Below are positions 4,132-58,552 of a stretch of 64,000 nucleotides of DNA, piece by piece. The notes beneath the pieces are model-generated. The model was not told where the DNA came from. It saw only the letters and a list, made by a program, of their open reading frames with translations, and ran no database searches. A program made the position numbers and the translations under genes. This DNA is from Infirmifilum sp. NZ (GTDB taxonomy: Archaea > Thermoproteota > Thermoprotei > Thermofilales > Thermofilaceae): positions 1,008,443 through 1,072,442 of the forward strand of contig NZ_CP094288.1 in NCBI RefSeq assembly GCF_022693705.1. The letters are read 5' to 3'. Position 1 is the stretch's first letter. Each line of letters begins with the position of its first letter.

Positions 4132-4419
4132 TTACTCGACGATGATGTTGCTTTCGGCGAACCCCCTAGCGATCAAGAACTCCTTGACCTTGTGCCTGTG
4201 GTCTCCCTGAAGCTCCACGTGGTCGTCTTTTATTGTCCCCCCGCAGGCCAGCAGCGACTTAAGCTCTGAAACCATTTTACGCAGATCCGGGTCTTTAGTG
4301 TCGAGGCCCGTGATAACAGTCACTTCCCGGTGACCCTTGCGCTTCTCGACTCTGATCTTGATTACCTGCTGCTCCTTGAAAACGCCTTTCAATATGTTAT
4401 CAAGTATTTCCGCGCTCAT
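4132..4419 (-). CDS. Translation initiation factor aIF1 (SUI1 family)
   Basis: SUI1-fold factor that promotes start-codon selection on the 30S subunit. The 95 residues carry the family core: KIRVEKRKGHREVTVITGLD, then the conserved LLACGGTIKDDHVELQGDH block (family pattern K-x-x-x-xCGGT...I..QGDHR). Located 54 bases downstream of rpo12 on the same strand, so both are probably transcribed together. Confidence 0.93.
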   Translation of the reverse strand: MSAEILDNILKGVFKEQQVIKIRVEKRKGHREVTVITGLDTKDPDLRKMVSELKSLLACGGTIKDDHVELQGDHRHKVKEFLIARGFAESNIIVE

Positions 4420-55578: not shown

Positions 55579-55680
55579 CCTCACAGCGACTGTTTATCTG
55601 CCTTGAGCCCGTCACCGGCTTTATTCCTCGGAGATAGCCCGACTGAAAAATTTAAATTGGGAGTTAGCATTAACTATACT

Positions 55681-55790
55681 GCCGGCACGCCCTGAAAGTC
55701 CACCCCCCGCTACCAGGAGCGGGGTGGGGAAGCCAGGTATCCCGCGGGGCTCATAACCCCGAGGTCGGTGGTTCAAAAGGGCGTGCCGGC
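55681..55790 (+). tRNA. Circularly permuted initiator tRNA-Met(CAU)
   Basis: The 3' half precedes the 5' half. First come T-loop end GT, T stem CCACC (55700-55704), acceptor CCCCGCT, discriminator A and encoded CCA (to 55715); after a GG spacer follow acceptor AGCGGGG (55718-55724), D arm GGGA/TCCC, anticodon stem CGGGG/CCCCG with loop CTCATAA, AGGTC, T stem GGTGG and TTCAA. Joined, the T loop reads TTCAAGT. A1-U72 and GGG/CCC in the anticodon stem mark an initiator. Leader GCCGGCACGCCCT and trailer AGGGCGTGCCGGC pair perfectly (13 bp), forming the bulge-helix substrate for splicing endonuclease. Thermofilum pendens is known to have such a gene. AATTTAAATTG upstream is the promoter. Confidence 0.95.
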
Positions 55791-55849: not shown

Positions 55850-55900
55850 ATGCCCCCTCCCACCTGCCCCTCTCGGGGCTCTTTCGGTCATTGGGGGCAT
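55850..55900 (+). other. Long-range hairpin upstream of PEP synthase
   Basis: ATGCCCCC (55850-55857) pairs perfectly with GGGGGCAT (55893-55900); inside is a CCCC-TCTC-GGGG hairpin (55867-55878). Could be part of an RNA leader, a small RNA, or a terminator-like structure after the tRNA. It lies upstream of the likely PEP synthase promoter. Confidence 0.45.
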
Positions 55901-55938
55901 ATACACCCTTTCTGCTCGACTATTTTAGCATTTTCTAG

Positions 55939-55969
55939 CCTTAAAGGCACCACACTATCCCTTAAGGCA
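55939..55969. repeat. Direct repeat CCTTAAGGCA, two copies 21 bp apart
   Basis: CCTTAAAGGCA at 55939 and CCTTAAGGCA at 55960. The copies start 21 bp apart, two helical turns, which suits a dimer or tetramer regulator bound to one face of the helix. About 105 bases before the ppsA start. Confidence 0.45.
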
Positions 55970-56074
55970 TCTATGCTTGTAAATCTAAAAAGCACTATTT
56001 GTGAGGATAAAGGGATAGTATTGCTACTTATGACGCTGGGTTTTTATCGTCATGAACTTTCTACTTACGAGAAC

Positions 56075-58552
56075 ATGAGTGAGAAGAAAACGAAGATAAT
56101 TTTGTGGTTTGAGGAGCTGTCCAAAGAGGATGTACCAATTGTAGGCGGCAAGAACGCTAACCTCGGTGAGATGATAAACGCTGGAATACCCGTGCCTCCA
56201 GGCTTCGCGGTGACGGCATACGCTTACAAGAGGTTTATTGAAGAGACCGGGATTCGCGACAAGATCTACGAGATACTGCGCAGCCGCGTTCCCGCAGGTG
56301 CCGCTAAGCCAGAGGACTACATGGAGGCTAGCAAGGAGATAAGAAAGCTCATTGAAAGCGTTTCTATGCCTAAGGACATTGAGGAGGAGATCAGGAGGGC
56401 TTACCGCGAGCTCAGCCGGCGCGTCGGCAAGAAGGAGGAGTTCGTAGCCGTAAGGAGCAGCGCGACTGCCGAGGACTTACCTGACGCCAGTTTTGCGGGC
56501 CAGCAGGAGACGTACCTGAACGTACGAGGCGAAGATGACGTCATCGACAAGGTCAGGAAGTGCTGGTCCAGCCTCTTCACACCAAGGGCTATTTTCTACA
56601 GGGAGTCCAAGGGGTTCGAGCACGAGAAAGTCCTGATCAGCGTGGCTGTGCAGAAGATGGTGAACTCAAAGTCTGCCGGTGTGATGTTCACGCTGCACCC
56701 CGTCACCGGCGACAGGGACAAGATCGTTATTGAGGGCCACTGGGGGCTGGGAGAAGCCGTGGTCAGCGGGAAGGTGACGCCTGACGAGTGGGTTGTGGAC
56801 AAGAAGACGATGCAGATCATTCAGCGTAACATTGTCGAGAAGAAGGTTGAGCTAGTTAGAGACCCTCAGACTGGCAAGACTGTGGAGCGCGAGATTGAGC
56901 CGGAAAGGAGGAATGCGCCCTCGCTAACTGACGAGGAGGTCCTGAGGCTCGCGGAACTCGCACTGAAGATCGAGCAGCACTACGGCAGGCCCATGGATAT
57001 TGAGTGGGCGGTTGACAGGGATCTCCCGTTCCCGGACAATGTATTCATTGTGCAGGCAAGGCCCGAGACTGTTTGGAGCGTAAAGGAGGCCGCTGGCGCT
57101 GGCACAGTATCTGTCAAGAGCGTCGCCGAGGCTAAACCCGTGGTTAAAGGGCTGGCCGCTAGCCCGGGTGTCGCGTATGGGCGAGCTAAGATCTGCTTGA
57201 CTCTCGAGGACGCTAAAGCCAAGATGCAACCCGGAGACATACTGGTCACTAAAATGACGGACCCCGACTGGGTGCCTTACATGAAAATCGCAGCCGCGAT
57301 AGTGACGGATGAAGGCGGAATGACCGCTCACGCTGCGATAGTGAGCAGGGAGCTGGGCATCCCCGCGATAGTGGGGACCAGAGAGGCTACAAAGCTGATG
57401 GTCGACGGCAAGGATTACACCGTAGACGCAAGGACCGGCGTCGTCTACGAGGGTAGAGTAGAAGAACTGCTGGGCGGGAAGAAGGAGGAGAAGGCAGCTG
57501 CGGCGGCCGCGCCCATCGAGATAGTATGGAAGCCGATTACCGGTACTAAGATATACATGAACCTGGGTGTTCCCGAGAAGATCAAGGAGTACAAGGACCT
57601 GCCCTTCGACGGCATTGGTCTAATGAGGGTAGAGTTCATCATGGCAAGCTACGTGGGAGAGCACCCGCTGTACCTCCTCGAATCAGGTCGAGGCGACGTC
57701 TTAGTAAACAAGATGGCAGAGGGCATAGCTCTCGTTGCACGTGAAATCTACCCGAGACCTGTCGTCGTGCGCTTCAGCGACTTCAAGACTAACGAGTACC
57801 GGCAGCTGAAAGGCGGGGAGAAGTACGAACCTCAGGAGGACAACCCGATGCTCGGCTGGCGCGGCGTAAGTAGGTACATCAGTCCTCAGTACGAGAAAGC
57901 CTTCAGGCTTGAGGTTAAGGCAATCAAGAAGGTCAGGGACGAGATGGGTCTTGGCAACGTCTGGGTCATGGCGCCTTTCGTCAGAACACTGTGGGAAGCC
58001 GAGAAATTCATCAAGCTGCTTGCCGAGGAAGGGCTTGAGAGCAGCAAAGACTTCAAGATATGGGCTATGGCGGAGGTCCCGAGCATAATCTTCCTAGCGG
58101 AGGAGTTCTCCAGGTACTTCGACGGCTTCTCCATCGGAAGCAACGACCTGACGCAGCTCACCTTGGGTACGGACAGGGACTCTGCGATCCTTCCAAAGAT
58201 AGATCCCAGGTACTTCGACGAGAGAGACCCAGCGGTGCGCACAGCCATAGCCATGCTCATCGAGAAAGCACACAACTCGCCCTACGGCTACCGTACGGTC
58301 TCGATATGCGGACAGGCTCCTAGCGTTTACCCCGAGTTCTCAGAGTTCCTTGTGAGGCACGGCATAGATAGCATAAGCGTGAACCCCGACGTTGTGGTTC
58401 GCACTAGGGAGCTCGTAGCCTCCATCGAGCACAGGATAATCCTGGAGAAGGCTCTCGGAGTCGAGAGGATTGAAGAGGATCTAGGGTGGCCGATGCGACG
58501 CGAGAGAAGAGGCCTACCGAAGTTCGCGCGCAGGGTTGACGAAGTCGAATAA
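56075..58552 (+). CDS. ppsA: Phosphoenolpyruvate synthase
   Basis: 825 residues: ATP-binding domain (IVGGKNANLGEMINAGIPVP, VRSSATAEDLPDASFAGQQE), phosphohistidine domain (DEGGMTAHAAIVSRELGIPA, His419) and PEP/pyruvate barrel (FSIGSNDLTQLTLGTDRDSA, SICGQAPS with Cys745). Makes PEP from pyruvate and ATP. ATG 56075 gives the family N-terminus; an in-frame upstream extension to 55850 has no homology and crosses the hairpin. Its 3' end overlaps the hydrogenase protease gene by 39 bases. Confidence 0.95.
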   Translation: MSEKKTKIILWFEELSKEDVPIVGGKNANLGEMINAGIPVPPGFAVTAYAYKRFIEETGIRDKIYEILRSRVPAGAAKPEDYMEASKEIRKLIESVSMPKDIEEEIRRAYRELSRRVGKKEEFVAVRSSATAEDLPDASFAGQQETYLNVRGEDDVIDKVRKCWSSLFTPRAIFYRESKGFEHEKVLISVAVQKMVNSKSAGVMFTLHPVTGDRDKIVIEGHWGLGEAVVSGKVTPDEWVVDKKTMQIIQRNIVEKKVELVRDPQTGKTVEREIEPERRNAPSLTDEEVLRLAELALKIEQHYGRPMDIEWAVDRDLPFPDNVFIVQARPETVWSVKEAAGAGTVSVKSVAEAKPVVKGLAASPGVAYGRAKICLTLEDAKAKMQPGDILVTKMTDPDWVPYMKIAAAIVTDEGGMTAHAAIVSRELGIPAIVGTREATKLMVDGKDYTVDARTGVVYEGRVEELLGGKKEEKAAAAAAPIEIVWKPITGTKIYMNLGVPEKIKEYKDLPFDGIGLMRVEFIMASYVGEHPLYLLESGRGDVLVNKMAEGIALVAREIYPRPVVVRFSDFKTNEYRQLKGGEKYEPQEDNPMLGWRGVSRYISPQYEKAFRLEVKAIKKVRDEMGLGNVWVMAPFVRTLWEAEKFIKLLAEEGLESSKDFKIWAMAEVPSIIFLAEEFSRYFDGFSIGSNDLTQLTLGTDRDSAILPKIDPRYFDERDPAVRTAIAMLIEKAHNSPYGYRTVSICGQAPSVYPEFSEFLVRHGIDSISVNPDVVVRTRELVASIEHRIILEKALGVERIEEDLGWPMRRERRGLPKFARRVDEVE

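Follow-up and report, generated by a model that had tools for sequence, protein, structure and literature searches.

The 64,000 nucleotide stretch of the Infirmifilum sp. NZ genome analysed here (the window) contains a circularly permuted gene for the initiator tRNA-Met(CAU) at positions 55681-55790. We estimate at about 95% the probability that this locus is a functional, single-copy permuted gene of the T-loop type, with its junction at 59/60. All parts lie on the forward strand. The gene opens with a 5' leader (GCCGGCACGCCCTGAAAG, 55681-55698), composed of the outer helix strand GCCGGCACGCCC (55681-55692), the core TGAA (55693-55696) and the bulge bases AG (55697-55698). The 3' part of the tRNA follows, positions 60-76 (TCCACCCCCCGCTACCA, 55699-55715), recognised by sequence and cloverleaf pairing and ending in an encoded CCA (55713-55715). 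A GG spacer (55716-55717) then leads from A76 to A1 of the 5' part, positions 1-59 (55718-55777), which carries the anticodon CAT and is free of introns. The 3' trailer (AGGGCGTGCCGGC, 55778-55790), composed of the last bulge base A (55778) and the outer helix strand GGGCGTGCCGGC (55779-55790), pairs with the leader.

Joining of the two halves at A59/T60 gives a 77 nt tRNA, reading AGCGGGG...CGGGGCTCATAACCCCG...CCCCGCTACCA, in which all cloverleaf stem positions are paired. Given the joined sequence, ARAGORN identifies it as tRNA-Met(cat), and the initiator features are all present: the anticodon CAU, A1 paired with U72 and not G1 with C72, and an anticodon loop with three G-C pairs at its base. 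The anticodon loop has 7 nt and no intron at 37/38. An earlier note on this DNA had proposed a permuted initiator gene at this place with just GG between the encoded CCA and A1; layout, cloverleaf and the ARAGORN call on the joined sequence agree with the first point, and the spacer reads as described. Because the spacer is 2 nt long, the mature ends lie within two bases of each other. On the unjoined gene as written ARAGORN makes no call at this locus and the Rfam tRNA model scores 19.4 bits, under its cut-off of 29, so that the permuted gene is missed by two standard tools. Scanning for the permuted layout, as defined by TTCRA together with pairing in the acceptor, in the T stem and between leader and trailer, is a type of search which the earlier note had suggested; it picks this locus alone in the window, in two spacer readings of the one place, with nothing on the opposite strand and nothing in 40 windows shuffled by mononucleotides. 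The fold of the region has a z-score of -4.53, none of 200 shuffles being equally stable. Downstream of the gene lies an open reading frame (55850-58552, forward strand) which, by reading of its sequence, resembles phosphoenolpyruvate synthase (PEP synthase), and a similar frame adjoins the permuted initiator gene in two relatives (G022 and G027).

The pairing of leader with trailer gives a strict bulge-helix-bulge motif, with a 12 bp outer helix (GCCGGCACGCCC/GGGCGTGCCGGC), a 4 bp core (TGAA/TTCA) and two 3 nt bulges, AG^T at 55697-55699 and AA^A at 55776-55778. The perfect 13 bp stem originally described is present by plain complementarity (55681-55693 with 55778-55790), while in the bulge-helix-bulge reading it becomes the 12 bp outer helix plus the 4 bp core. 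The splicing endonuclease usually cuts after the second bulge base. By this rule the junction would run from 55777 to 55699 (A59 to T60) and the T loop would read TTCAAAT; the junction given previously, 55776 to 55698 with the loop TTCAAGT, falls one base early on both sides. The published junction of the initiator tRNA of Thermofilum pendens is likewise 59/60 (PMC3218864). Conservation of the outer helix was assessed on ten species, whose sequences were arranged by hand and compared without gaps, each position being counted from the core; the count leaves out G020 (motif in another register), G024 (identical to the window) and G018 (cut). In the first ten pairs 99 of 100 cells, which owing to kinship are not independent, are paired, and each position shows between two and four kinds of pair. 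As the changes affect both sides of the helix, they are direct evidence of selection on the structure.

A promoter motif (AAAGTTTATA-like) was learned from 41 further tRNA genes of the same genome, where it starts at a median of 37 nt before position 1 (33-47 nt in 40 of the 41). Its best match at the permuted gene is the BRE/TATA-like box AAAATTTAAA (55647-55656, forward strand), 34 nt before the leader helix and 71 nt before A1, so that the transcript should start before the 3' half. The sequence evidence points to one promoter, placed ahead of the 3' half; the permuted initiator gene of T. pendens has its promoter at -72 (PMC3218864).

A search of 27 genomes of the order, plus G018, in which the 5' half is lost at a contig end, found the permuted initiator gene in 13 genomes (G000, which is the window genome, G022-G027, G013, G018-G021 and G011). 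It is present in all seven genomes of the genus (G000 and G022-G027), including T. pendens (G023, L069) and T. uzonense (G027), and also in G011, which belongs to another family. G023 is recognised as T. pendens by the coordinate of the gene, which agrees with Table 1 of PMC3218864. The locus is identical to that of the window in G024, which counts as the same species, and in the public MAG Thermofilum sp. NZ13 (L034). Across the permuted genes the spacer measures 2, 5, 6, 7, 16 or 23 nt. In one of them (L065, from G019) there is an additional intron in the variable region. In one relative (L037/L064) part of the initiator 5' region is present a second time, which may be the mark left by an integrated element. 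The parallel with T. pendens drawn before this analysis holds, its G023 counterpart having the permuted gene with the junction as published (PMC3218864). The accompanying remark that permuted tRNAs are very rare is correct across life but not within the genus, where permutation is the rule. In nine genomes (G002, G004, G006-G008, G010, G012, G014 and G015) no initiator tRNA was found by DNA and pattern searches; there the gene may lie outside the assembled sequence, contain introns or have diverged further. A phylum-wide pattern (CGCTACCAN{0,30}AGCGGG, 398 genomes) was discarded as too short to be specific, its matches outside the order looking like chance.

In our literature search archaeal permuted tRNAs were reported for T. 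pendens only; subscription journals and tRNA databases, which lay outside its scope, may list a lineage-wide occurrence. The word "permuted" is absent from the text of the T. uzonense paper (PMC4673724). The permuted initiator gene of T. pendens is already known (PMC3218864), and what is new are the occurrence in 13 genomes, the compensatory changes in the helix, the scatter of the permuted species over more than one clade and the unpermuted tRNA-Tyr of the window species. By this lineage-wide occurrence a two-gene peculiarity of one species becomes a comparative system.

The second gene concerned is that for tRNA-Tyr, which is permuted in T. pendens, G013 and G018-G021. A permuted tRNA-Tyr in the window genome was considered and rejected: the pattern gives no match, and the tRNA-Tyr gene (L052, G000:C1:1418955-1419087, reverse strand) has the ordinary, unpermuted layout and an intron of about 60 nt, Rfam scoring its 3' part only. 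Pattern matches in G006 and G015 are ordinary tRNA-Tyr genes with a chance ACCA upstream. The permuted tRNA-Tyr of T. pendens has a spacer of 1 nt (PMC3218864, PMC3978253), so the 2 nt spacer of the window gene is not the shortest.

The relations between the species were taken from a single gene tree (rpoA1), and the MAGs included are partly incomplete. In this tree the genus is permuted throughout, as is the group of G013 and G018-G021, while G016/G017, sister to the genus, carry an initiator gene in ordinary order with an anticodon intron. A constraint keeping the permuted species together is rejected on rpoA1 (p-AU 2.5e-11). That they are not a single clade implies either one gain and at least one loss, or repeated gain or transfer. 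We give a little under even odds to the view that the permuted initiator gene had more than one origin or was passed on laterally, as opposed to a single ancestral gain in the family followed by reversion. The lack of a single permuted clade and the ordinary genes of G016/G017 next to an all-permuted genus speak for it, as do the neighbours of the G011 gene, which it does not share with the genus, and a lateral transfer has been suggested for T. pendens (PMC3218864). Two changes would however suffice, one gain and one reversion; junction and motif are the same in all cases, and subgroups of the genus have gene neighbours in common.

Other gene architectures bear on how the permutation came about. 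L031 (around 4139-4240, forward strand) comes from a Thermoproteales MAG that is placed by its rpoA1 with G037/G125; its initiator gene keeps the ordinary order and has, at 59/60 in the T loop, an intron that forms the same kind of motif (AGGGGGCGGAACCCCCTGGGAG). Tandem duplication of such a gene and subsequent trimming would yield a permuted gene, although the carrier of L031 is not close to the permuted species. In the relative B15_G16 (QMRC01000001.1; L039/L057) two halves of an initiator tRNA lie 1.8 kb apart on the reverse strand, at about 303.8-305.8 kb. The 5' half ends in CTCATAAGGCGGTCGCGGCGGC and the 3' half, downstream on the same strand, is preceded by GCCGCCGCGACCGCC, 15 bp being perfectly complementary; each half has a TATA-like box and there are open reading frames between them. 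This locus is a candidate split initiator gene, interrupted at 37/38 and with a relaxed core. The mature 77 nt tRNA is identical in the window, in B15_G16 after joining and in G016 (L032) after removal of the intron. We tentatively propose, as a possibility to which we would give somewhat less than even credit, that the initiator gene shifts between permuted, intron-containing and apparently split forms while the mature RNA stays unchanged, permutation being gained from a T-loop-intron gene (L031 as presumed precursor type) and lost by reversion. The comparative set has spacers of 2-23 nt and additional introns or none, next to ordinary, intron-containing and apparently split genes, and this range makes the rise and loss of permuted tRNA genes directly testable.

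For the expression of the window gene the following course is proposed. A single transcript would start near the leader helix, and leader and trailer would pair across the interrupted T loop into the bulge-helix-bulge. A two-subunit splicing endonuclease would then cut after AG (55698) and after A59 (55777), and ligation of A59 to T60 would close the RNA into a circle, with GG linking A76 to A1. RNase P would free A1, and a 3' nuclease would subsequently trim GG to leave CCA. This splicing of the precursor, from cutting and ligation through the circle to the trimming of the ends, is inferred. For archaea, no case is known to us in which a circle is processed whose mature ends are just two bases apart. 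The window genome, T. pendens, G022 and G013 each have two PF01974 endonuclease genes, in keeping with the T. pendens enzyme, which has been described as having two subunits and a broad range of substrates (PMC3978253). Alternatively, the mature ends may be freed before the bulge-helix-bulge is cut and the halves joined as linear pieces without any circle, since the acceptor stem can form in the uncut transcript and RNase P could act first. We regard this order as unlikely: circular intermediates have been shown for permuted tRNAs of algae (PMC3978253, PMC4033280), and in vitro cleavage of a permuted-type substrate by an archaeal endonuclease has been reported (PMC3978253).

The window genome is a single contig of 1,829,130 bp, 99.9% complete. 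A DNA search of it with the joined tRNA gave no match beyond the window locus and no second initiator, ordinary initiators elsewhere in the genome being what the earlier note had named as the finding that would speak against it. There are two other tRNAs with a CAU anticodon; G1 and C72 mark both of them as elongator Met and/or Ile(CAU). That the locus is a dead remnant, for instance a duplicate that was rearranged or the scar of an integration, with the initiator supplied from elsewhere, was rejected as highly improbable: tRNA genes often serve as integration sites, and L037/L064 has its partial 5' copy just downstream of an intact gene, but the window locus is the sole initiator of its genome, every stem is intact, the helix is kept across species by compensatory changes and the promoter is placed as suits a permuted layout. 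With the permuted gene taken as functional, an essential tRNA without backup depends on cutting and rejoining of RNA, for which these cells must have an efficient pathway.

Among known systems the closest is the permuted initiator tRNA(CAU) gene of T. pendens (PMC3218864), which has the same order of halves, the 59/60 junction, the encoded CCA and an upstream promoter. It differs by a 7 nt spacer and a 15 nt anticodon intron at 37/38, where the window gene has GG and no intron, and by one mismatch in the core (GGAA/TTCA), which has four pairs in the window. Since other permuted members likewise lack the anticodon intron, it is no defining feature of the family. The permuted tRNA-Tyr(GUA) of T. 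pendens shares the T-loop junction and the layout of the window gene, whereas the tRNA-Tyr of the window genome is ordinary. In eukaryotic permuted tRNA genes the junction is likewise in the T loop at 59/60 with the 3' half first, and there the circular intermediate has been shown; unlike the window gene, they concern other tRNAs, lack an encoded CCA and have longer spacers. The initiator tRNA of Nanoarchaeum equitans is split at 37/38 (PMC3218864). With such archaeal split tRNA genes the window gene has the splicing logic in common, but it is one transcript with swapped halves and not two transcripts.
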